Assembly (NCBI RefSeq): GCF_016406085.1
Contig: NZ_JAEHFJ010000004.1
Span: forward strand, 310,001 to 374,000
DNA: 64,000 nt
Source of the DNA: Aureibaculum flavum
GTDB taxonomy: Bacteria > Bacteroidota > Bacteroidia > Flavobacteriales > Flavobacteriaceae
Direction: 5' to 3'
Shown: piece by piece, positions 27,377 to 39,008 of the stretch
Layout: the number at the start of each line of letters is the position of its first letter
How positions within the stretch are numbered: the stretch's first letter is position 1
The notes under the pieces: generated by a model
Told to the model about the DNA's origin: nothing
Seen by the model: only the letters and a program-made list of their open reading frames with translations
Database searches by the model: none
Program-made: the position numbers and the translations under genes

Positions 27377-28672
27377 TTATTGTTGTAATCCTATTTTATA
27401 AGCAGATAATGCTCTTTCTCTGGCAAATTTATGATCTACCATAGGTTCAGAATATCCTAAATCAAATTCAGGAATCCATTTTCTTGTATATTCTAAATTT
27501 GTATCAAACTTTTTTAATTGTAAGGCTGGATTAAATACTCTGAAATATGGTGCGGCATCACAACCGGTTCCTGCAGCCCATTGCCAATTTCCATTATTAG
27601 AAGACAATTCATAATCCAATAATTTTTCAGCAAAATAAGCTTCACCCCATCTCCAATCAATCAATAAGTGCTTACATAAAAAACCTGCGGTTACCATACG
27701 AACTCTATTATGCATATATCCCGTTTCATTTAATTCTCGCATACCAGCATCTACCAAAGGATATCCTGTATTACCTTCGCACCATCTTTTAAAATCTTCT
27801 TTGCTATCTCTCCACTTAATACCATCATATTTAGATTTAAAATTATGAGTTACCACTTTTGGAAATTGAAATAATATCTGCATAAAAAATTCCCTCCAAA
27901 TAAGTTCACTTAAAAACACAGCATTCCTTTCCAAAGCAATCATCACAAATTTTCTGATACTTACTGTACCGAAACGCAAATGCGGTGATAAATAAGAGGT
28001 CCCGTTTTTTGCGGGAAAATCTCTATTTAAATCATAATCTGAAATGACACTTAAATTAACAGGTTGTACTTTCTGTTTACTTTTTACAAAACCAATGTTT
28101 TCTAAGCTAGGAAATAACATTTCATAATTATAAAAACTATCCCAATCTAAATTGTTCTCATCTTCTACAGTAAAAGGATTCTGTTTAAATTTTTCTAACC
28201 ATTTATTTTTATATGGCGTGTAAACGGTATACGGTTTTCCATCAGCTTTTAGAATTTCATTTTTTTCAAAAATTACTTGATCTTTAAAATTACGTACTTC
28301 AATATTCTTTGATTCTAAAAAAGTAGTTATTTTTTGATCTCTTTTAATGGCATATGGTTCATAATCCCTATTAAAAAAAACTTTTTTCACATCATATTCA
28401 GTTATTAACGCTTTCCAAATTTCTCCTATATTTCCTTTTTTAATAAGTAATGAACTGTTTTTATTTTTTAATTTTAGATGAATGTTTCTCAATGACGTAT
28501 AAATAAAAGTAAGCCTTCCATCGTTTTTAGGCAAATCTTCTAAAATTTCATCATCAAAAATAAATATAGGAAGTACCGGAAGTCCACTTTCTAAAGCTGA
28601 TTTTAAACCTACATTATCTTCTAAACGTAAATCACGTCTATACCAAAAGATTGAAATTTCAATTTTCTTCAT
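27377..28672 (-). CDS. phr: Deoxyribodipyrimidine photolyase (class I CPD photolyase/cryptochrome family)
   Basis: Flavoprotein that uses blue/UV-A light to split pyrimidine dimers. N-terminal antenna domain (IFWYRRDLRLEDNVGL) and C-terminal FAD-binding domain with LSPHLRFGTVSIR, GYMHNRVRMVTAGFLCKHLLIDWRWGE (in parts) and NGNWQWAAGTGCDAAPYFRVFNP, the region contacting FAD and the lesion. 431 aa, somewhat short but complete. It overlaps the SRPBCC gene by 14 bp and lies in an operon whose upstream neighbours make pterins, the antenna class of such enzymes. CPD versus other lesion specificity is not certain. Confidence 0.93.
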   Translation of the reverse strand: MKKIEISIFWYRRDLRLEDNVGLKSALESGLPVLPIFIFDDEILEDLPKNDGRLTFIYTSLRNIHLKLKNKNSSLLIKKGNIGEIWKALITEYDVKKVFFNRDYEPYAIKRDQKITTFLESKNIEVRNFKDQVIFEKNEILKADGKPYTVYTPYKNKWLEKFKQNPFTVEDENNLDWDSFYNYEMLFPSLENIGFVKSKQKVQPVNLSVISDYDLNRDFPAKNGTSYLSPHLRFGTVSIRKFVMIALERNAVFLSELIWREFFMQILFQFPKVVTHNFKSKYDGIKWRDSKEDFKRWCEGNTGYPLVDAGMRELNETGYMHNRVRMVTAGFLCKHLLIDWRWGEAYFAEKLLDYELSSNNGNWQWAAGTGCDAAPYFRVFNPALQLKKFDTNLEYTRKWIPEFDLGYSEPMVDHKFARERALSAYKIGLQQ

Positions 28673-29313: not shown

Positions 29314-29775
29314 TTAATTGTTTGTATAAATATAATAATTTAGTGATGTGGCTATAGCTAACCAAATAACATAAGGTAATAGCAATAAACTTATCAAGTG
29401 TAATTTACTGTAATAAGCGATTAAAAAATAGATTATTAATATGGTAAGTAAAGAAATTATTATCAGTGCAAAGCTAACTGCATGTTGGTTAAAAAACACA
29501 TAGTTCCAACTCACATTTAGTACTACTTGAAAAATAAATAATATAATAATTTTCCCTGTATTCTCATTGGTATATAACTGAGCCATATAAATTGAGAAAC
29601 AAATCATTATAATCGTCCAGGCAGCTCCAAAAACCCATCCTGGTGGAGTCCACGGGGCTTTATTCAATCCAATATACCATTCGGTTTGTGGTCCATTATT
29701 CATTAACCAACTGCCAATGGCTAATGCACCAAAATTTATGACTAAAAAAATGACAACTAATATATTAAATTTCAT
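29314..29775 (-). CDS. tspO: TspO/MBR family membrane protein
   Basis: 153 aa with five hydrophobic segments. The TspO signature appears as WYIGLNKAPWTPPGWVFGAAWTI and the later NVSWNYVFFNQH; the C-terminus retains WLAIATSLNYYI. TspO proteins bind porphyrins and in Rhodobacter act as an oxygen- and light-dependent regulator of photopigment genes. Its place in an operon with photolyase and next to carotenoid genes fits a role in tetrapyrrole or photo-oxidative stress handling. Confidence 0.92.
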   Translation of the reverse strand: MKFNILVVIFLVINFGALAIGSWLMNNGPQTEWYIGLNKAPWTPPGWVFGAAWTIIMICFSIYMAQLYTNENTGKIIILFIFQVVLNVSWNYVFFNQHAVSFALIIISLLTILIIYFLIAYYSKLHLISLLLLPYVIWLAIATSLNYYIYTNN

Positions 29776-30579: not shown

Positions 30580-31281
30580 TTAATTGTTAATACTATTCTG
30601 TAATTCTGCAATTTTGGATGGTGATTTAAATACCCCTCCATAAAAGCTCGTAACTGTACTTGAGGTATCATCTTGAATTCCTCTAGAAGATACACATAAA
30701 TGTTTGGCATCTATTATAACCGCTACATCTTCAGTTTCTAAAATAGTTACCAATTCATTTGCTATCTGATTCGTTAATCGCTCTTGTACCTGTGGTCTTT
30801 TTGCATAATACTGTACAATTCTGTTTAATTTAGACAAACCAATAACTTTACCGGAAGAAACATAAGCTAAATGTGCTCTGCCTATAATAGGTACAAAGTG
30901 ATGTTCACAATTAGAATAAAAAGTAATGTTTTTTTCAACTAACATTTGGTTATATTGATACTTGTTATCAAACAAAGCAATTTTAGGTTTATTTGCAGGA
31001 TTTAATCCTGAAAATATTTCATCAATATACATTTTGGCCACTCTATTGGGTGTGCCTTTTAGTGAATCATCATTGAGATCTAGTCCCATTACCTTCATTA
31101 TTTCTTGAAATAAATAGGCTATTTTTTCCTTTTTTTCACTATCAGAAATACTAAATGCATCTGCCGTAAGTGGAGTTTCCAAACCAGTATATAAATGGTC
31201 GTCACCTATTTCATGATCAGAAAAATTATGAAGGTGATTTTCGCTAAGCAGGGTATTCAACAAAGTTTCTTGGTGTTTCAT
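30580..31281 (-). CDS. folE: GTP cyclohydrolase I
   Basis: 233 aa. Converts GTP to 7,8-dihydroneopterin triphosphate, the entry to folate and biopterin-type pterins. Zinc and active-site motifs are intact: SNCEHHFVPIIGRAHLAY, GLSKLNRIVQYYAKRPQVQERLT and KHLCVSSRGIQD. The N-terminal about 45 residues are a variable extension. The gene overlaps the end of the 6-pyruvoyl-tetrahydropterin synthase gene by 38 bp, so both are translated from one mRNA starting at the operator at 31672. This placement suggests pterin supply for photolyase rather than general folate synthesis. Confidence 0.93.
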   Translation of the reverse strand: MKHQETLLNTLLSENHLHNFSDHEIGDDHLYTGLETPLTADAFSISDSEKKEKIAYLFQEIMKVMGLDLNDDSLKGTPNRVAKMYIDEIFSGLNPANKPKIALFDNKYQYNQMLVEKNITFYSNCEHHFVPIIGRAHLAYVSSGKVIGLSKLNRIVQYYAKRPQVQERLTNQIANELVTILETEDVAVIIDAKHLCVSSRGIQDDTSSTVTSFYGGVFKSPSKIAELQNSINN

Positions 31282-31666
31282 ATAGTTTAATTTTTAACTC
31301 TAATTTTTTATCTAAATATTTTCTTAATAATGTAAAAATTACTCTGGCAATGTTTTCAGCAGTAGGATTCAGCTCTCTAAATTCTATAACATCTAAATTT
31401 AAATTCTTGTGATCTAATTTTTCTAACACTTCATTTTTTATGATGTCGGACAATATTTTAGTATCTATGACATAACCAGTTTCAGGATCGCAAAAGCCAA
31501 TTACTTTAACTTCTAGCTCATAATTATGACCATGATAATTGGGGTTATTGCATTTACCAAAAACTTCGCTATTTTTTTCTTGACTCCAATGGACATTATT
31601 TAATCTATGGGCTGCATTAAAATGTTCCTTTCTTACTATAGAAGTTTTATATTGTTGATCTAACAT
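31244..31666 (-). CDS. 6-pyruvoyl-tetrahydropterin synthase / 6-carboxytetrahydropterin synthase family
   Basis: 140 aa from ATG at 31666. Zinc ligands H20 (EHFNAAHRL) and H45, H47 (NYHGHNYELEV) and a catalytic-type C39 are present. The enzyme acts on dihydroneopterin triphosphate, the FolE product, making either a biopterin precursor (PTPS) or the queuosine precursor (QueD). A longer frame starts at 31702, but that ATG lies within the promoter/operator palindrome and -7 element, so 31666 is correct. Coupling to folE, and no queC/queE nearby, favour a tetrahydropterin role. Confidence 0.88.
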   Translation of the reverse strand: MLDQQYKTSIVRKEHFNAAHRLNNVHWSQEKNSEVFGKCNNPNYHGHNYELEVKVIGFCDPETGYVIDTKILSDIIKNEVLEKLDHKNLNLDVIEFRELNPTAENIARVIFTLLRKYLDKKLELKIKLYETPRNFVEYPA

Positions 31667-31671
31667 TATTT

Positions 31672-31701
31672 TGTTTAACTTTTGTAGTACAAAGTTAAAC
31701 A
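31672..31701. promoter_or_regulatory. Putative MerR/CarH operator A (pterin genes)
   Basis: TGTTTAA-N16-TTAAACA; the palindrome here extends further, TGTTTAACTTT on one side and CAAAGTTAAACA on the other. Reading on the minus strand, TAACTTTG (plus 31690-31697) forms the -7 promoter element inside the half-site, 23 bp before the ATG at 31666. A protein bound here would block RNA polymerase. Confidence 0.75.
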
Positions 31702-31729
31702 TTATTAATGAAAGATTATTAAGAAAATG

Positions 31730-33151
31730 TTAATTATTAACAAGACGTGAAATCATTCCATTAAAAATAAATCCATGAAAGGGAGCTACTGCATACCAAT
31801 ATAATCGTCCGAATAAACCTTTAGGTCTAAAAACAGCACGTTGATATAATATGTTCTCAATAATAACAAATTCTAGCCAAGCTTCTCCAGGTAATTTCAT
31901 TTCTGCATAAAGTAATAAACGTTTCTCCTTTTTATTGGCATACAAAACCCTCCAGAAATCGAGAGCATCGCCCGCACTTAATTTGGTTGGATGAGTTCTT
32001 CCACGTCTTAAACCTATTCCACCAGATATTTTATCTAGATACCCTCTCATTTTCCAAAGAAAATTACCATAGTACCATCCGTTATGACCACCTATAGACC
32101 AGATCTTTTCTAGAGTTCTAGTTTCATTTTTTACTTCCCTTTTTTTAATATCCTTAAAACAACCATACTGAGGCACTTCTATATATTGTGATAATTTCTT
32201 ATTAAACCTTCCACTTACAAAAGAGTCCTTCCAACTTGAAACACTACTGTTCTGCTCTATTTTTATAAAGGCTTTTTGAACAGCCTCTTTATAAGTTATG
32301 GGGTTAACCCCCAACATTTCATTTATATCACTATCAATTCCAATGACTTCCACTTTCATACTATCTACCAAACTAATTGCCAGTTTGTAAGACGTGGCAG
32401 TTATAAAATACAACCAATAAGATGATAATTTTGGCGTCATTACAGGAACTGAATAGATATATCGTTTAAATTTACGAACTTCAGCAAACCGCAACATCAT
32501 CTCTTTATAGGTCAGTACTTCTGGTCCAAAAATATCATACGATTTATTGTACAATTCCTGTTTACCAATTGCCTTAGAAAGAAAAGTCAACACATCACGT
32601 ATGGCAATGTACTGTGATTTAGTATTTACCCATTTTGGAACAATCATTAAAGGTAATTTTTCAACTAAATCTCTAATAATCTCAAAGGAAGCACTTCCGC
32701 TACCTACAATTATTCCTGCTCTAAACGTTGTTAGAGCATATATTTTTGATTGCAAGGTGTTTTCTACTTCTTTTCTAGAAGCTAGATGTTTTGACAGATT
32801 ACTATCATTAACAATACCACTGAGATAAATAACTTGCTTCACATCAGTAGATTCAATATGGTTTTTAAAATTTCCAGCACATTGTTTTTCCAATTTTTCA
32901 AAATCTGTGGAAGAAGAAGACATAGAATGAATTAAATAATAAGCAACATCTATATCCTTTGGAATTGCTTTTAAAGTCTCTTCCTTTAAAAAATCTACCT
33001 CAATTAAGGTTATCTTCTTATTATTTTTTACAATTTCAGGAACCCGTCCTATATCCCTAACACAGCACACCAATTGATGATCTAATTCTAATAGCATAGG
33101 AATTAGACGTTTACCGATATAACCTGTTGTACCCGTTAGTAAAATTTTCAT
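31730..33151 (-). CDS. NAD(P)-binding epimerase/SDR with C-terminal DUF2867 domain
   Basis: 473 aa from ATG at 33151 (KILLTGTTGYIGKRLIPMLL follows at once; an earlier in-frame GTG at 33211 is not needed). N-terminal atypical SDR of the NmrA/epimerase type with a TGxxGYIG cofactor loop and YLIHSMS; the C-terminal about 150 residues (LDFWRVLYANKKEKRLLLYAEMKLPG read in parts, ending in APFHGFIFNGM) are DUF2867. Such fusions are common near carotenoid and photolyase genes, and I recall them in light-induced sets. The reaction is unknown. It is transcribed toward the pterin genes. Confidence 0.82.
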   Translation of the reverse strand: MKILLTGTTGYIGKRLIPMLLELDHQLVCCVRDIGRVPEIVKNNKKITLIEVDFLKEETLKAIPKDIDVAYYLIHSMSSSSTDFEKLEKQCAGNFKNHIESTDVKQVIYLSGIVNDSNLSKHLASRKEVENTLQSKIYALTTFRAGIIVGSGSASFEIIRDLVEKLPLMIVPKWVNTKSQYIAIRDVLTFLSKAIGKQELYNKSYDIFGPEVLTYKEMMLRFAEVRKFKRYIYSVPVMTPKLSSYWLYFITATSYKLAISLVDSMKVEVIGIDSDINEMLGVNPITYKEAVQKAFIKIEQNSSVSSWKDSFVSGRFNKKLSQYIEVPQYGCFKDIKKREVKNETRTLEKIWSIGGHNGWYYGNFLWKMRGYLDKISGGIGLRRGRTHPTKLSAGDALDFWRVLYANKKEKRLLLYAEMKLPGEAWLEFVIIENILYQRAVFRPKGLFGRLYWYAVAPFHGFIFNGMISRLVNN

Positions 33152-33248
33152 AATAATATTTTTAAAACTAGTTGATAATTTGCGATAGTGCTCATCTATA
33201 CAATCAAACACCTATTATATATTAGACCAAGATACTAATTTATTATTG

Positions 33249-33278
33249 TGTTTAAGTTTTTTAACATAACTTTAAACA
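33249..33278. promoter_or_regulatory. Putative MerR/CarH operator B
   Basis: TGTTTAA (33249-33255), 16 nt, TTAAACA (33272-33278). It lies 98 bp upstream of the DUF2867 gene and 24 bp before operator C on the fasciclin side, start-to-start distance 53 bp. No clear -7 element overlaps it, so it may act on the minus-strand DUF2867 promoter or together with site C. Confidence 0.65.
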
Positions 33279-33285
33279 TAAAATG

Positions 33286-33317
33286 TTGAATTACATATTT
33301 TTGTTTAACTATATTTG
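33286..33317 (+). promoter_or_regulatory. Bacteroidota promoter for the fasciclin gene
   Basis: TTG at 33286-33288 and TATATTTG at 33310-33317 are 21 nt apart. The -7 element lies in the gap of operator C and 22 bp before the ATG at 33340. Confidence 0.65.
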
Positions 33318-33331
33318 CTGAAACTTAAACA
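33302..33331. promoter_or_regulatory. Putative MerR/CarH operator C (fasciclin gene)
   Basis: TGTTTAA (33302-33308), 16 nt, TTAAACA (33325-33331), enclosing the -7 element TATATTTG of the fasciclin promoter. Same spacing as sites A, B, D and E. Confidence 0.75.
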
Positions 33332-33339
33332 TAAATATT

Positions 33340-33933
33340 ATGAGAACAAGAAATTTAATGATTGCTTTTGCCATGACCGGATTTATTTTTAGCACTGCGT
33401 GTGCGGACACTAAAAAAGAGAATGTGCATAATGAAACAGAGAAAGTAACCTCTGATGATGTTACCGAAAAAGAAGCCGTTAAAAAAACTCCAACTATTGT
33501 TGGTGTTGCAGCTGCCAATGAGGATTTTTCAACTTTAGTGGCTGCTGTTAAGGCTGCCGGTTTAGTTGAGACTTTAAGTGCTGATGGACCATTTACTGTT
33601 TTTGCACCTGTAAATGCTGCTTTTGATAAATTACCAGAAGGTACCGTTGCTGGTCTTTTAAAACCTGAAAGTAAAGATGCTTTAACTTCACTTTTAACGT
33701 ATCATGTGGTTACTGGTAAATTTATGGCTGCAGATGTTGTTAAAGCTATTAATGACAATAATGGTACTTTTTCTATTCCTACAGTACAAGGTGGTAATCT
33801 AATCGCCTCTATGAGTGGGGATAATGTTATCTTAACTGACGAATCTGGAAACGTTTCCACCATTATTATGACTGATGTTGCAGCGTCAAATGGCGTTATA
33901 CATGCAATAGATTCAGTAGTAATGCCTAAATAA
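33340..33933 (+). CDS. Fasciclin (FAS1) domain protein, exported
   Basis: 197 aa. N-terminal export signal ending near FSTAC20, which may be a lipobox. A charged linker precedes one complete FAS1 domain: FSTLVAAVKAAGLVETL, GPFTVFAPVNAAFDKLP, LLTYHVVTGKF and ending NGVIHAIDSVVMP. FAS1 proteins mediate adhesion; in bacteria they are often small secreted proteins of unknown role. The only plus-strand gene inside the minus-strand carotenoid/pterin block, with an operator on its promoter and a strong hairpin terminator behind it. Confidence 0.9.
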   Translation: MRTRNLMIAFAMTGFIFSTACADTKKENVHNETEKVTSDDVTEKEAVKKTPTIVGVAAANEDFSTLVAAVKAAGLVETLSADGPFTVFAPVNAAFDKLPEGTVAGLLKPESKDALTSLLTYHVVTGKFMAADVVKAINDNNGTFSIPTVQGGNLIASMSGDNVILTDESGNVSTIIMTDVAASNGVIHAIDSVVMPK

Positions 33934-33955
33934 TAGGTTGGTTTTTTTGATAGCG

Positions 33956-33995
33956 AAATCGCCATCAGCCTTAAAACGCTGGTGGCGATTTTATT
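33956..33995 (+). terminator. Strong intrinsic terminator between fasciclin and crtY genes
   Basis: AAATCGCCATCAGC (33956-33969) pairs with GCTGGTGGCGATTT (33978-33991) in a 14-bp stem with one G-U pair and an 8-nt loop, followed by TTATTTT. It lies 22 bp past the fasciclin stop and directly next to the stop of the convergent lycopene cyclase gene, so it may serve both. Confidence 0.85.
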
Positions 33996-34682
33996 TTAAA
34001 ATAATCTTTTCTTTTTGAAAAATTCGATGAACAGAATACTACCAAAAAGCATGGTAAATGCATACCCTGCATCTTCAATGGGAATGGTACCTAATCTAAT
34101 TCCTAAATTTTCACTATTGTTATACCATACTACAGGTTCTTCAATAAAACTACCCGTAAGTATTCCGTTCACAATAAAAAATGGAATAAGGATGATTAAA
34201 AAAGTAATATAAAATATAGGTAATTGCTTATTTTTTGTAAAAAAACTATAAAACAACACGGTACTTAAAATGATATAGTTGTAAAAAGTATACGCCTTAT
34301 CGAAATTAAAAATGGCCACTATAAATAACAAAATAGCAAGACTAATTGTTATTATATTGGACAGTCTAATTGGAACGTGCGTTTGTGGAAAAAAATATTG
34401 AAATGCATAATGGATAAATATACTCGCATAAGGAATACAAATAAAAAAAAGCCATTCTTCTATTGGTAAACTAAATATAGTGATGCCTATCAAATAATCC
34501 TCATTAAATCCCCAAACACCATCAATGGTGAAGATGATATCCCATATGATAAAAAATGTCGCTACAATTACAATGGATAAAAATACTTCTTTCCACCATT
34601 GAATATAATGCATGCGTTTTTCAAAACTATATAAAAACGGGATACTAAAAGACGCTAAATTTAAAAGGAGGTAAAGTGACAT
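33996..34682 (-). CDS. crtY: Lycopene beta-cyclase, CrtYcd (membrane) type
   Basis: 228 aa with six or seven hydrophobic helices. The two repeated domains of the CrtYc/CrtYd type are visible: first-half IDGVWGFNEDYLIGI and PIEEWLFFICIPYAS, and late LGTIPIEDAGYAFTMLFGS. It converts lycopene to beta-carotene at the membrane; no FAD Rossmann domain, unlike CrtY of proteobacteria. Start ATG at 34682 touches the crtZ stop, making it the last gene of the crtI-crtB-crtZ-crtY operon. Confidence 0.9.
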   Translation of the reverse strand: MSLYLLLNLASFSIPFLYSFEKRMHYIQWWKEVFLSIVIVATFFIIWDIIFTIDGVWGFNEDYLIGITIFSLPIEEWLFFICIPYASIFIHYAFQYFFPQTHVPIRLSNIITISLAILLFIVAIFNFDKAYTFYNYIILSTVLFYSFFTKNKQLPIFYITFLIILIPFFIVNGILTGSFIEEPVVWYNNSENLGIRLGTIPIEDAGYAFTMLFGSILFIEFFKKKRLF

Positions 34683-35132
34683 TTATATCTTAAAATATTT
34701 AAATGGAACAAGCAACATACCAAAGCACTCTCCTTCTTGTTTTCCAAGATGTTTATGATGCACTTTATGGGCTTTTCTTAATCCTATTAAATATTTAATT
34801 TTGGTTTTCTTAAACCATTTAAACCTTTGATGAATGAGCACATCATGTACTAGAAAATAAGAGATACCATATAACAGTACCCCAAGACCAATAAAGAATA
34901 AATAATTTACACCACCATCAACCCCAAAATAAAAAAGTAAAATACTAGGTATGGCAAATATGACAAAGAAAATATCATTTCTTTCAAAGGTATTTTCATA
35001 TTTAGGTTGATGGTGATCTGCATGAAAATACCACATAAATCCGTGCATGACAAACTTATGCGTTATCCAAGTTACCGCTTCCATACATAGAAAAGTAACC
35101 AGTGTTATTAATATGAATTTTAAAACTATCAT
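34683..35132 (-). CDS. crtZ: Beta-carotene hydroxylase (CrtZ, fatty-acid hydroxylase superfamily)
   Basis: 149 aa. Di-iron histidine boxes: HKFVMH, HADHH, HDVLIHQR and KAHKVHH. Membrane segments at about 5-22, 50-68 and 75-95. It hydroxylates both beta rings of beta-carotene to give zeaxanthin, the standard end product of flavobacterial carotenogenesis. Gene starts immediately after the crtB stop and abuts crtY. Confidence 0.92.
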   Translation of the reverse strand: MIVLKFILITLVTFLCMEAVTWITHKFVMHGFMWYFHADHHQPKYENTFERNDIFFVIFAIPSILLFYFGVDGGVNYLFFIGLGVLLYGISYFLVHDVLIHQRFKWFKKTKIKYLIGLRKAHKVHHKHLGKQEGECFGMLLVPFKYFKI

Positions 35133-35969
35133 TTACATTAAATTCAATTTGTAAGTTACAAAAGATTGTGCTAATAAGCTAACTTTACGAGGATTTGAAA
35201 CTCGTATTCTAGTGTTCATTATTTTTTTACTTGGTGTTCTTTTTAATTTATTTAATAAACATTTATAATAAATATAAGATGTGTAAACACCAAATTTAGC
35301 TTCATTTGGAAGGTCTTTTATACCTAGATATGCGATTTTAAAATCCTCCTCTATTTCTTCTATAATTTCCAATTTAGAAATATTATCTAAATTATGAATA
35401 TCTATGTTGGGAAAATAAGATCTATCTAAGACTTCAATATCATCTTTTAAATCTCTTAAAAAATTAACCTTTTGAAATGCTGAACCCAACCGCATTGCCG
35501 ATTTTTTTAGTTCATTAAATTTGTTTTCATCACCCTTCACAAAAACTTTTAAGCACATAAGCCCTACAACATCGGCAGAACCATAGATGTAATCTTCATA
35601 TTCACTTTTATCATAATTATGCTTTGTCAAATCTAGTCGCATACTCTTTAAAAAGGATTGCACCAAATCATCATCAATATTATATTTTTTTACAGTGAGT
35701 TGAAAAGCATTTAAAATGGGATTTAAACTAATACCTTCATGATATGCCTTGTAATAATCTTGCTCAAACTCTTCTAGTAAATTTGCCTTGTTATATTCAT
35801 GAAAAGTATCTACAATTTCATCTGCAAAACGCACAAAACCATAAATGCTATAAATTGCATCTCTTATTGAGGGGGCCAGCATTTTTACCGCCAATGTAAA
35901 TGATGTACTGTAAGATTTAGTAACTAATTTGCTACACCCTACTGAAACTGAATTAAATAAATTATCCAT
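35133..35969 (-). CDS. crtB: Phytoene synthase
   Basis: 278 aa. Condenses two geranylgeranyl-diphosphate molecules to phytoene. Aspartate-rich Mg-binding motifs are present: IYGFVRFADEIVDTFH and FLRDLKDD. Start 4 bp after the crtI stop. No geranylgeranyl-diphosphate synthase gene (crtE) or idi lies in the window, so precursor supply is encoded elsewhere. Confidence 0.93.
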   Translation of the reverse strand: MDNLFNSVSVGCSKLVTKSYSTSFTLAVKMLAPSIRDAIYSIYGFVRFADEIVDTFHEYNKANLLEEFEQDYYKAYHEGISLNPILNAFQLTVKKYNIDDDLVQSFLKSMRLDLTKHNYDKSEYEDYIYGSADVVGLMCLKVFVKGDENKFNELKKSAMRLGSAFQKVNFLRDLKDDIEVLDRSYFPNIDIHNLDNISKLEIIEEIEEDFKIAYLGIKDLPNEAKFGVYTSYIYYKCLLNKLKRTPSKKIMNTRIRVSNPRKVSLLAQSFVTYKLNLM

Positions 35970-35973
35970 AAGC

Positions 35974-37458
35974 TTATTGATTTTGGTGATGAACTAAAGG
36001 GTAATGTTTTTGTATTAAACTAGATACAACTTTTCCAGAGATTAATGCTGGTGGTACACCTGGTCCAGGAACGGTTAATTGTCCTGTAAAAAATAAATTA
36101 CTTACTTTTTTACTTTTTAGTTTTGGTCTTAAAAAAGCAGTTTGCGTTAGTGTATTTGCCAACCCGTATGCATTTCCTTTAAAAGAATTATAATCTTCTT
36201 TAAATTCTTTGATGCAGTACGATTTTTTAAATAGAATATGATCTTTTACGCTTTGATTGGTTAATTTTTCAAACCTATCCATAATATGATTGAAATATGT
36301 TTCTCGTATTTCTGGAGTATCTTCAATACCAGGAGCTATTGGAATCAAAAAGAATCCTGCTTCTTTGTTTTCTGGTGCAAATGAAGGGTCTGTTAAACTT
36401 GGAAAGTTAGCATAAAATAAAGGCTTTTCTGGCCAAGAAGGTTCGTCATAAATTTGAATAGCATGTTTATCAAAATCAGAATCAAAAAATAAGGTGTGAT
36501 GACATACTTCTTTTATTTTTTTATCAAAACCCACATAAAATAATAATGAAGATGGGGCTAAGACTTTTTTATCCCAATACTTTTCAGAATACTGTCGGTA
36601 TGGTTTATCTAACAAGGTCTCTGTATGGTTATAATCTGCACCACTTAAAACAACATCTGCTTTTAAAATCAAATCGTCTACTTGAACTCCAATCGTTTTA
36701 CCGTCTTCAATGACTATTTTAGAAACATTACTGTTTGTTTTAATTTCAACACCTAAACTGACTGCAAGATTTGTCATTGCTTTTATAACTTCATGCATAC
36801 CACCCTTTGGATGCCATGTGCCTAAACCGAAATCGGCATAATTCATGAAATTATAGAAAGAAGGTGTATTACTAGGTTTTGCTCCTAAAAACAATACCGG
36901 AAACTCCAGTATTTGTATCAGCTTTTCATTCTTTATTTTTTTTCTAACCTTTTTTCTAATACTTGTAAAAAACTGATTGACTCTTTGTATTGTAACTGGT
37001 GTTATGAGCTCCGCAATAGAATTCCCTGGTTTATAAACCAAATCCTTAATTGCAACTTCATAATTAAATTTTGCAGAATCTATAAAATCTTGAAGATATT
37101 TTGAACTACCTAGTTCAACTTCCTCAAAAGTCTTTTTTATATCACTTAGATTATCTGATATTTTTATACTATCTGACGTATTGAAATAGACCTGATAAGC
37201 AGGACTCAATTTACTTAAATCGTAATAATCCGAAACTTTTTTCTCAAAATCAGCGAAAAAACTCTCAAAAACATCTGGCATCCAATACCAAGACGGTCCC
37301 ATATCGAATTTAAATCCATCTTTTTCAAAAACTCTCGCTCTTCCCCCAACCATTTCGTTTTTCTCTAAAATAGTAACGGAATAGCCAGCTTTAGCTAGAT
37401 AACAAGAAGCCGCTAATGAAGAAAAGCCAGATCCTATAATAATAATTTTGTTTTCCAT
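35974..37458 (-). CDS. crtI: Phytoene desaturase
   Basis: 494 aa from ATG at 37458 (MENKIIIIGSGFSSLAAS); an in-frame start at 37491 would lie beyond the operator and promoter and is rejected. N-terminal FAD-binding loop GSGFSSLAASCYLAKAGYSV and MVGGRARVF, the DMGPSWYWMPDVFE block and the C-terminal LFFTGQLTVPGPGVPPALISGK are typical of CrtI. It desaturates phytoene to lycopene. First gene of the carotenoid operon; the -7 element lies 9 bp upstream of the ATG. Confidence 0.95.
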   Translation of the reverse strand: MENKIIIIGSGFSSLAASCYLAKAGYSVTILEKNEMVGGRARVFEKDGFKFDMGPSWYWMPDVFESFFADFEKKVSDYYDLSKLSPAYQVYFNTSDSIKISDNLSDIKKTFEEVELGSSKYLQDFIDSAKFNYEVAIKDLVYKPGNSIAELITPVTIQRVNQFFTSIRKKVRKKIKNEKLIQILEFPVLFLGAKPSNTPSFYNFMNYADFGLGTWHPKGGMHEVIKAMTNLAVSLGVEIKTNSNVSKIVIEDGKTIGVQVDDLILKADVVLSGADYNHTETLLDKPYRQYSEKYWDKKVLAPSSLLFYVGFDKKIKEVCHHTLFFDSDFDKHAIQIYDEPSWPEKPLFYANFPSLTDPSFAPENKEAGFFLIPIAPGIEDTPEIRETYFNHIMDRFEKLTNQSVKDHILFKKSYCIKEFKEDYNSFKGNAYGLANTLTQTAFLRPKLKSKKVSNLFFTGQLTVPGPGVPPALISGKVVSSLIQKHYPLVHHQNQ

Positions 37459-37460
37459 AT

Positions 37461-37490
37461 TGTTTAACAAATATACAATTTTATTAAACA
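37461..37490. promoter_or_regulatory. Putative MerR/CarH operator D (carotenoid operon)
   Basis: TGTTTAA (37461-37467), 16 nt, TTAAACA (37484-37490), 2 bp from the crtI ATG. On the minus strand it encloses TATATTTG (plus 37468-37475), with a -33 TTTG (plus 37494-37497) 18 nt upstream. It lies in the 49-bp gap between the regulator gene and crtI. Confidence 0.8.
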
Positions 37491-37507
37491 AAACAAAATT
37501 ATATTAT

Positions 37508-38410
37508 TTATATTTTATCTAAGGCCTGCATTAGTGAACCAATGGCCTCAATTTGTGAGTAAGATTTTGATTTTTCATATTGAGAAGATTTCCTTCCTAA
37601 AAACCAAAAGTTATTATCTGTTCCTTTCAGTAGCTTCTCATTTATGTCTTCTAAATACTGTCCGATATCATTTTCATTAGGTTCTACGGTAAAATACGAA
37701 ATAAATTGAACATTACTATATAAAGGTTTTATGTCTTGTACTGCATCAATAGCAATATTTTGACCTAAGTATATTGAATGATAACCACGTAATATCAATT
37801 CGTAATGCAAATACAAAAGCCCCAGTTCATGTATTTCTCGCATTGGTAAAAATAATACAAATGTCTTTTCATTTTCTTTAAAACTGGTAACTTGGCTACG
37901 CTCAATATTTGACTGTATTTTTTGCATAATCAAATTTGAAACAAAATGTTCATGAACCGGTTTTATAGATTTATGCTGCCACAAATATCCTATTTGAATT
38001 AGTAAAGGAATAAATACTTCTAAAAATATTTCTCTAAAAGATTTATAAGCTAAGAGTTTATTATATGCTTCATTAAATGAAACGGCATCAAAATTAAGCA
38101 TTGCAATCTTAAACTCATTGATAACTCCGTCTTCCAACGCTTTGTCTGTCGTAAGTTCTTTAACTTTCAAAAGCAATACATCCTCTGAAAACTCTGCAAT
38201 TTTAGAAATTTTGAAGCCATTATTATACAATAAATTGATGTTTAATAATTTTACAAAATTATCACCATCATAATATCTTATATTAGTATCTGTTCTAGAA
38301 GGTTCAAGTAAATTATATCTTTTTTCCCAGATTCTAATCGTATGAGGTTTAATTCCTGTGAAATTTTCTAAGTCTTTAATAGAAAATTTAGTTTTAATAT
38401 TGTTTAACAT
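37508..38410 (-). CDS. MerR-family regulator with CarH/LitR-type cobalamin-binding domain (putative B12 photoreceptor)
   Basis: 300 aa from ATG at 38410 (a TTG at 38431 is in frame but lies in the operator). N-terminal MerR helix-turn-helix: FSIKDLENFTGIKPHTIRIWEKRY. The middle helical domain has W144, nine residues, then E154-H155, the Wx9EH signature of CarH. The B12 Rossmann-type domain begins with E192-I-H194-E-L-G197 (the DxHxxG motif with Glu), where H194 would be the lower cobalt ligand. The later SxL and GG motifs look degenerate (SYF, LGR). CarH binds adenosylcobalamin and DNA in the dark and falls apart in light. Here it is next to crtI and shares an operator with it. Confidence 0.88.
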   Translation of the reverse strand: MLNNIKTKFSIKDLENFTGIKPHTIRIWEKRYNLLEPSRTDTNIRYYDGDNFVKLLNINLLYNNGFKISKIAEFSEDVLLLKVKELTTDKALEDGVINEFKIAMLNFDAVSFNEAYNKLLAYKSFREIFLEVFIPLLIQIGYLWQHKSIKPVHEHFVSNLIMQKIQSNIERSQVTSFKENEKTFVLFLPMREIHELGLLYLHYELILRGYHSIYLGQNIAIDAVQDIKPLYSNVQFISYFTVEPNENDIGQYLEDINEKLLKGTDNNFWFLGRKSSQYEKSKSYSQIEAIGSLMQALDKI

Positions 38411-38430
38411 ATTTGGGTTATTATAAAACA
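38401..38430. promoter_or_regulatory. Putative MerR/CarH operator E (autoregulation)
   Basis: TGTTTAA (38401-38407), 16 nt, TAAAACA (38424-38430), one mismatch from the other sites. It covers the regulator's start codon, and on the minus strand a -7 element TACATTTG (plus 38429-38436) touches its far edge. Suggests that the regulator represses its own gene. Confidence 0.65.
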
Positions 38431-38463
38431 AATGTACGTTTTTTTATTAATTATTAAAGATTC

Positions 38464-38513: not shown

Positions 38514-39008
38514 GTGAACAAAGAATTAGAGCTTAAATTTATTTCAGATTTAGAAGAAAATCAAAATATAGTGCATAAGGTTTGTAGGATCTATACCAAC
38601 AATAAAGATGCTCATAATGATTTATTTCAAGAAATCAGTATTCAGTTATGGAAAGCCTATCCCAAATTTAGAGGAGATTCTAAATTTAGTACTTGGATGT
38701 ATAGAGTTGGATTAAATACCGCCATAACGATATACAGGAAATCGAAACGCTCCATAAAGACGCAAGATTTTGATTCTGTTTTGCATAAAATTGAGTCTGT
38801 TGACTATGATGATACCGAAGAAGAGCAATTAAAATTATTATACAAAGCAATTTATCAATTGTCTGATATTGATAAAGCTTTAGTACTACTTTACCTAGAA
38901 GAAAAGAATTATAAAGAAATTTCAGAAATGATGGGGATTAGTGAAGTAAACGCTAGAGTAAAAATGAATAGAGTAAAAACTAAATTAAAAAACATACTTA
39001 ATCCGTAA
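38514..39008 (+). CDS. ECF-type RNA polymerase sigma factor
   Basis: 164 aa, GTG start. Sigma region 2 (DLFQEISIQLWKAYPKFRG, STWMYRVGLNTAITIYRK) and region 4 (LLYLEEKNYKEISEMMGISEVNARVKMNRVKTKL) with no region 3 or C-terminal extension. Divergent from the MerR/CarH-like gene with 103 bp between the starts, and followed 2 bp later by a membrane protein that may be its anti-sigma factor. In Myxococcus a light-activated ECF factor (CarQ) works upstream of carotenoid genes; here the order of control is unknown. Confidence 0.92.
   Translation: MNKELELKFISDLEENQNIVHKVCRIYTNNKDAHNDLFQEISIQLWKAYPKFRGDSKFSTWMYRVGLNTAITIYRKSKRSIKTQDFDSVLHKIESVDYDDTEEEQLKLLYKAIYQLSDIDKALVLLYLEEKNYKEISEMMGISEVNARVKMNRVKTKLKNILNP

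Follow-up and report, generated by a model that had tools for sequence, protein, structure and literature searches.

A 64,000-nucleotide stretch of the Aureibaculum flavum genome (contig NZ_JAEHFJ010000004.1, positions 310,001 to 374,000 of the forward strand; here called the window) carries five copies of the 30-bp palindrome TGTTTAA-N16-TTAAACA before genes for carotenoid, pterin and fasciclin-domain proteins and for a MerR-type regulator. The palindrome is probably (about 0.72) the operator of this adjacent MerR protein, which, to judge from the sequence, would be a CarH-like repressor that sits over the -7 promoter element with adenosylcobalamin and is released by light; we infer binding, oligomeric state, repression and the dependence on light and B12. 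The MerR protein had been proposed as the reader of the motif in a first-pass annotation of the window, and this assignment is supported by the co-occurrence of motif and protein and by paired changes of recognition helix and operator.

A rescan of the window found all five copies where the first-pass annotation had placed them, four perfect and one with a single mismatch:

Operator 1, 31672..31701: perfect; heads a minus-strand run of PTPS (6-pyruvoyl tetrahydropterin synthase family), folE, SDR-like, tspO, SRPBCC-like, photolyase and DUF2141-like genes (the SDR-like, SRPBCC-like and DUF2141-like members were named by eye).
Operator 2, 33249..33278: perfect; between the divergent SDR-DUF2867 and fasciclin genes.
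Operator 3, 33302..33331: perfect; covers the likely fasciclin promoter.
Operator 4, 37461..37490: perfect; covers the likely promoter of crtI, which is followed by three more carotenoid-type genes; relatives have a site at the same place.
Operator 5, 38401..38430: one mismatch; the likely merR start codon is immediately followed by its right half; between merR and a divergent ECF sigma factor gene.

At up to one mismatch, these five copies compare with 0.21 expected, none of 100 shuffles held five or more, and the window has no further copy of this class. At up to three mismatches, 29 copies were found and 29.65 expected, which is background, so that the signal resides only in the near-perfect copies. 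The window contains 12 unpaired TGTTTAA half-sites (6526, 8020, 13151, 17975, 28182, 30822, 38239, 47780, 51021, 58803, 61058 and 63034), and the four listed earlier were therefore an incomplete set. The accompanying statement that the palindrome occurs nowhere else holds within the window and fails genome-wide. The -7 elements of the form TAnnTTTG, described earlier as lying inside or overlapping three sites and touching the edge of a fourth, were borne out; operator 2 (33249) has no TAnnTTTG within the site. The elements are as follows:

TAACTTTG, 31690..31697, minus: -7-like, overlaps the left half of operator 1.
TATATTTG, 33310..33317, plus: -7-like, inside operator 3.
TATTTTTG, 33296-33303: second -7-like element near operator 3.
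TATATTTG, 37468..37475, minus: -7-like, abuts the right half of operator 4.
TACATTTG, 38429..38436, minus: -7-like, overlaps the edge of operator 5.

Far from being frequent and without enrichment before light or carotenoid genes, the motif has seven perfect copies in the 4.75 Mb genome, three of them outside the window, and the reversed-pattern control has none. The perfect sites precede carotenoid, pterin, photolyase-like, fasciclin, SDR-DUF2867 and TetR/ABC1 genes. The earlier idea of a single regulon is supported by these sites; its extent is wider than the island first described. At up to one mismatch, the genome has 16 places (seven perfect and nine with one mismatch) against eight for the control, so that the one-mismatch class is largely background; of this class, 38401 and C27:74970 alone were retained, chosen by location, and the rest were dropped after their surroundings had been read. 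The N17 form of the palindrome has no exact copy in this genome, and its 11 one-mismatch places against six for the control are likewise background. The retained sites on other contigs are:

C27:79348, perfect: precedes a DUF2452-DUF2805-photolyase-like-DPRP run.
C37:163879, perfect: precedes a second fasciclin gene (341-residue frame, named by eye).
C12:68984, perfect: precedes a TetR-ABC1 kinase-flavin reductase run.
C27:74970, one mismatch: flanked on one side by a run encoding a 141-residue unknown protein, a CIA30 protein and DUF6642, and on the other by a DoxX-like gene (by eye).

When relatives were searched, the motif was found to track the MerR protein. The family sample consisted of 249 Flavobacteriaceae genomes of 235 genera, which were drawn evenly yet share descent, so P values are nominal throughout; genome completeness values were copied manually. 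A MerR homologue was present in 203 genomes (E<=1e-20) and the exact motif in 197. With the homologues divided into close and remote groups at a best E of 1e-50, the exact motif was found in 183 of the 186 genomes with a close MerR (mean 3.8 copies), in 6 of the 17 with a remote one and in 8 of the 46 with none, the Fisher test of close MerR against none giving a nominal 4e-32. Among the MerR-less genomes that are at least 90% complete, 1 of 25 had the motif. Three of the 17 remote-MerR genomes have an Ile-type recognition helix (see below), and these hold 2, 3 and 4 copies. Altogether, 728 motif places were counted in the 249 genomes, and 29 for the reversed control.

The geometry of the site was examined in 80 named merR loci (1.49 Mb), the majority carrying labels of Flavobacteriaceae genera (Flavobacterium, Winogradskyella, Maribacter, Polaribacter and others). 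Spacers of 0 to 40 were scanned: N16 occurred 20 times, N17 eight times, N38 twice and all others not at all; no direct repeat TTAAACA-N4-TTAAACA was found in these loci. A site with up to two mismatches lies over the merR start in 66 of the 80 loci and in 13 of 1600 random windows. Its commonest form there is TGTTTAA-N16-ATGAACA, in which the start codon falls within the half-site. The MerR N-terminus MNN is encoded as ATGAACAA(T/C) in 55 of the 80 loci (noted at the merR start, L109-L188), and the operator half-site thus overlaps the coding sequence. Just after the merR stop codon and before crtI, a site with up to one mismatch is present in 39 loci, compared with 1 of 1600 random windows. 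Of the remaining 41 loci, 36 have a crtI-like frame no more than 66 bp from merR and on its strand, so that a single operator could control the two genes. L140 and L149, which bear the labels Bifidobacterium breve and Rhizobium sp. (metagenome-assembled), also have a flavobacterial-type merR, and L140 has the crtI operator as well; they are probably mislabelled or mixed bins.

The recognition helix and one base of the operator change together. The family, order and named-locus samples together gave 196 distinct sequences in which residue 28 was read; numbering follows alignment A1 and equals that from the likely ATG plus 1; here and in the sets of sites, loci and T-type sites, identical sequences or contexts were removed as duplicates. 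The helix reads HT[IL]RIWE in the close MerR group and mostly HTLRKWE in the remote group. At equal spacing, Ile is paired with the half-site TTAAACA, Lys with TTRGACA and Thr with TTATACA. Near merR, base 4 of the half-site is A, G or T in 178, 11 and 1 cases for Ile (site found in 78 of 145 loci) and in 5, 31 and 4 cases for Lys (15 of 15 loci), and helices with Ala, Val or Met go mainly with A; 14 other spacings tested near merR gave no site. The form TGTCYAA-N16-TTRGACA occurs in 9 of 14 Lys-type genomes versus 18 of 234 others, with G135, which has Val in a close MerR and three TTRGACA-type sites, set apart from the Lys-type count. Nine sites away from merR were read in Lys and Val genomes; all are intergenic, and six of them are beside PTPS, CIA30, fasciclin or ABC1 genes. 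Ten G-type matches were read in Ile-type genomes or genomes of unread type; eight of these are in open reading frames (ORFs) and none has a reference gene downstream.

The Thr type is represented by ten loci from families f6, f8, f11 and f15 of the same order, all reading RTWE; these divergent loci were missed by the helix pattern and were read separately. TGTATAA-N16-TTATACA precedes merR exactly in three, in a near form in four and not in the other three. The exact T-type motif is present in 22 of 31 MerR-bearing genomes of these families versus 2 of 81 MerR-bearing genomes elsewhere, and it is absent from three of four MerR-bearing f15 genomes and from six of 15 f11 genomes. All 30 T-type sites that were read lie outside ORFs longer than 150 residues; merR, crtI, photolyase-like, fasciclin or DUF2452/SDR genes follow 12 of them, and the other 18 matched no reference gene. 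Three T-type matches from other families are intergenic and have no such genes downstream. None of the 112 order-sample genomes with a homologue of the MerR protein (E<=1e-30) belongs to family f5.

Genes and promoters were read at 82 distinct exact sites, seven from A. flavum and 75 from 20 of 196 other motif-bearing genomes. All but one, which is inside a large ORF, lie outside ORFs longer than 120 residues. An ORF starts within 300 bp of 77 sites, and 64 have a gene of the reference set (mnmA excluded) within 1.8 kb downstream; fasciclin (19 sites), TetR-ABC1 (14), 141-residue family (10) and crtI (9) genes recur. Where an ORF starts within 100 bp and both flanks are complete (81 oriented site-gene pairs), TAnnTTTG is found at offset 16 in 23 pairs, at 36 in 13 and at -5 in nine, with 0-3 at any other position; in the opposite orientation, offsets 16 and 36 have one and none. 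Operator and core promoter overlap or touch in fixed registers. This is the pattern expected for exclusion of the polymerase and points to repression.

The regulator gene is the following:

merR, 37508..38410, minus: CarH-like regulator with MerR HTH and B12-binding_2 domains, Wx9EH and ExHxxG; the start is likely the ATG at 38408-38410, and the listed frame opens at 38431.

Its product is, on the residues and domains it contains, CarH-like rather than a generic MerR protein. An N-terminal MerR-type winged helix (PF13411, 2.7e-14) is joined to a B12-binding_2 domain, and an AlphaFold2 model (pLDDT 88.4) has the CarH fold, with CarH of Thermus as the best structural match; sequence identity to the CarH proteins of Thermus, Bacillus megaterium and Myxococcus is about 14-18%. 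Trp145, Glu155, His156, Glu193 and His195 are invariant in the 32 sequences of A1 and align with the CarH motifs Wx9EH and ExHxxG. Wx9EH is kept in 32 of 32 sequences of A1 and in 143 of 144 Ile-type sequences, and ExHxxG, the axial-histidine motif, in 140 of the 144. The full B12 motif ExHx2Gx41SxV/Tx22-27GG, as defined in the available part of a review (PMC8156234), is absent, so that by this definition the protein is CarH-like in its working parts and not a textbook member. The genome has an adenosyltransferase-family gene and only one other B12-binding_2 place, in an 894-residue open frame that is probably MetH.

Most likely, the CarH-like MerR protein is a repressor, probably light-released, with an inverted operator in place of the direct repeats of CarH. 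In the dark, a dimer or tetramer carrying adenosylcobalamin would bind the two inverted TTAAACA half-sites, 23 bp apart from centre to centre, and RNA polymerase would be kept off the -7 element between or beside them. Light below about 530 nm would break the Co-C bond, the oligomer would fall apart, and the carotenoid, pterin, photolyase, fasciclin, TspO, ABC1-kinase and merR genes would be expressed jointly. The conserved adenosyl (Ado)-capping and cobalt-ligand residues, the adenosyltransferase-family gene and the content of the regulon point to control by light. In Thermus CarH, one head-to-tail dimer contacts repeats 1 and 3 of the 11-bp direct repeats, according to the part of PMC9304148 consulted; these are 22 bp apart, compared with 23 bp, inverted, here. 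CarH has a flexible linker between its DNA- and B12-binding domains (PMC8156234, in part), and with such a linker one dimer could span both half-sites here if one DNA-binding domain turned round.

Several observations weigh against this reading. The described operators of CarH are tandem 11-bp direct repeats (PMC8156234 and PMC9304148, in the parts available), and no expression or binding data for the MerR clade were found. At offset -5, the -7 element is almost as common in the opposite orientation (nine versus six), so this register is not clearly oriented. Each of the Lys and Thr groups forms one clade, which makes two events and not many, and the Lys sequences differ at position 31 as well (Lys to Ser/Thr). 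G185 has Ile with a TTAGACA site at merR, and in G135 a Val goes with G-type sites. The exact motif is missing from three genomes despite a close MerR, namely G092 (Ala), G020 (Ile) and G135, in a reading of loci that left out four Lys-type ones. Three of the 14 Lys genomes hold one A-type place each, and five have no exact N16 G-type place. The T-type motif is also present in 12 of 43 genomes of f6, f8, f11 and f15 without a MerR match, several of them incomplete. In view of the single-clade shifts and of G185, G135, G020 and G092, the correspondence of helix and operator is a strong correlation and not a proof. Two sequences with Ser at residue 28 have no Wx9EH and may be other proteins. Finally, the classic B12 motif has degenerated in its second half (GG in 0 and an S-x-V/T-like form in 23 of the 144 Ile-type sequences), and the domain matches of the MerR protein do not include Pfam B12-binding (PF02310); cobamide binding may therefore be altered or lost. 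The loss of GG, which belongs to the cobalamin tail pocket, with Wx9EH and the axial histidine kept hints at an unusual cobamide or at altered binding.

This degeneracy bears on an alternative in which the same MerR protein and operator work without B12 photochemistry, the protein being a B12-independent repressor like CarA or class II LitR that is released by a partner such as a photoreceptor, an antirepressor or an oxidative signal. With the pattern applied here, only 1 of the 196 sequences shows GG; in Pseudomonas, class II LitR acts together with a LOV protein (PMC9758184, in part); and CarA, which has no Wx9EH, requires CarS. The available text of PMC8156234, however, puts the B12-independence of CarA down to the missing Wx9EH and assigns Ado-capping and cobalt ligation to the two motifs that are nearly invariant in the Ile-type sequences; the adenosyltransferase-family gene also speaks against this alternative, which we regard as unlikely though not negligible.

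That the motif is used by the ECF sigma factor encoded divergently at 38514-39008, or by some other unlinked regulator, is very improbable. The ECF gene shares the operator 5 region and is kept beside merR in a same-genus genome and three named loci (L027, L135, L137 and L148), but an ECF relative is found in only 5 of 110 merR loci, that of A. flavum included, whereas merR is in all 110 and the motif is common there. Besides, ECF promoters do not have the form of a palindrome. The ECF sigma factor was rejected as binder on synteny. The TetR-type protein of the regulon (C12:68302-68952) is a slightly poorer candidate still: TetR repressors bind palindromes, and the motif stands before its own gene and before TetR genes at the 14 sites mentioned above, but MerR predicts the motif regardless of TetR, since it is present in 41 of 42 genomes with a close MerR and no TetR match and in 6 of 15 with TetR and no close MerR. 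The operator also varies with the MerR helix, the site before the TetR gene of G038 (Lys type) being G-type, and the TetR protein was rejected on co-occurrence. A mere AT-rich promoter feature recurring by composition, suggested by the AT-rich region and the overlapping -7-like elements, is practically dismissed, as the 249-genome co-occurrence (728 places versus 29 reversed, few in MerR-less genomes) and the spacer scan (N16 and N17) already contradict it.

A broader extension of the CarH-like reading is offered tentatively, at somewhat less than even odds. An order-wide clade of CarH-like Bacteroidota regulators may read inverted half-sites that lie 23 bp apart, residue 28 setting base 4 (A for Ile, Ala or Met; G for Lys; T for Thr); the unlinked light-protection regulon would have been rewritten twice together with its regulator, and the degenerate tail part of the B12 motif would indicate a photoreceptor that takes a cobamide other than cobalamin.

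The other genes of the island are:

crtI, phytoene desaturase-like, 35974..37458, minus: amine oxidoreductase/NAD-binding family matches, crtI name by eye; the start is likely the ATG at 37456-37458, and the frame as listed starts at 37491, within the operator.
crtB-like phytoene synthase, 35133..35969, minus: named by eye, no domain scan.
crtZ-like hydroxylase, 34683..35132, minus: named by eye, no domain scan.
Lycopene cyclase-like, 33996..34682, minus: named by eye, no domain scan.
Fasciclin-domain protein, 33340..33933, plus: PF02469.
SDR-DUF2867 protein, 31730..33211, minus: PF11066, PF13460.
PTPS, 31244..31702, minus: PF01242; the listed frame opens inside operator 1, and the true start is probably downstream.
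GTP cyclohydrolase I (FolE), 30580..31281, minus: PF01227.
TspO/MBR family, 29314..29775, minus: PF03073.
DNA photolyase, 27377..28672, minus: PF00875, PF03441.
ECF sigma factor gene, 38514-39008: divergent from merR.

The genes behind the operators look like a photo-protection set of pigment, light-driven DNA repair and pterin cofactor functions; photolyases can use pterin-type antennae. The 141-residue protein (L016:6492-6917, minus; cluster C02), which is found at 10 of the 82 operators, has no Pfam or NCBIfam match and is probably an unknown light-protection protein. An mnmA/trmU-like gene, named by eye (L018:4070-5257 and relatives), is divergent at nine of the 82 sites, mostly beside fasciclin genes. 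In L074 and L235, a site precedes a mevalonate-kinase-like gene (also named by eye), which would tie isoprenoid supply to the regulon.

In sunlit water, flavobacteria are among the major consumers of algal matter. The operator marks the likely on/off switches of sunlight-protection genes in marine and freshwater flavobacteria and yields for each genome a list of candidate light-protection genes, including such unknowns as fasciclins, DUF2452, DUF2805, the 141-residue protein and ABC1 kinase. The Ile, Lys and Thr variants found in nature offer a direct way to test how MerR-type proteins recognize DNA, and the inversion of the operator raises the question of how a CarH-type oligomer fits it.

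In the literature searched, as far as its text was available, no light regulator of flavobacterial carotenoid and photolyase genes was found described. MliR of Bizionia, which has no effector domain, is not the same protein; the accessible text of PMC9478572 does not mention the palindrome, TGTTTAA, fasciclin, cobalamin or an operator. A light RNA-seq study of Chryseobacterium lacus (PMC7064467, in part) reported light-induced crt genes, and its authors found no car/lit genes; it is not used as support here. A comparison of marine Flavobacteriia notes photolyase clusters and, in the part available, makes no mention of MerR, B12 or fasciclin (PMC5932025); the accessible part of the SignatureFinder paper (PMC11796333) has no Bacteroid or Flavobacter term.

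Three known systems resemble the one described here. The light regulon of LitR/PplR of Pseudomonas (class II LitR) is alike in containing photolyase, FolE, a cryptochrome-like protein and an SDR (PMC9758184, in part); it differs in its consensus, T(G/A)TACA / TGTACA, and in its LOV partner, the comparison being one of descriptions and not of sequences. CarA of Myxococcus xanthus is likewise a MerR-type repressor of carotenoid genes, and its operator was at one time proposed to consist of inverted repeats, although later work prefers direct repeats (PMC9304148, in part); unlike the flavobacterial protein, it is B12-independent and has no Wx9EH (PMC8156234, in part). CarH of Thermus thermophilus, Bacillus megaterium and Myxococcus is a B12 photoreceptor-repressor, in which GG/SxV/T is kept, whereas here it is not. 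The arrangement of the operator is not described for CarH in the parts of the literature consulted: CarH binds tandem 11-bp direct repeats, nAnnTnnACAn, whereas the flavobacterial MerR protein would read inverted half-sites with an N16 or N17 spacer before several unlinked targets.

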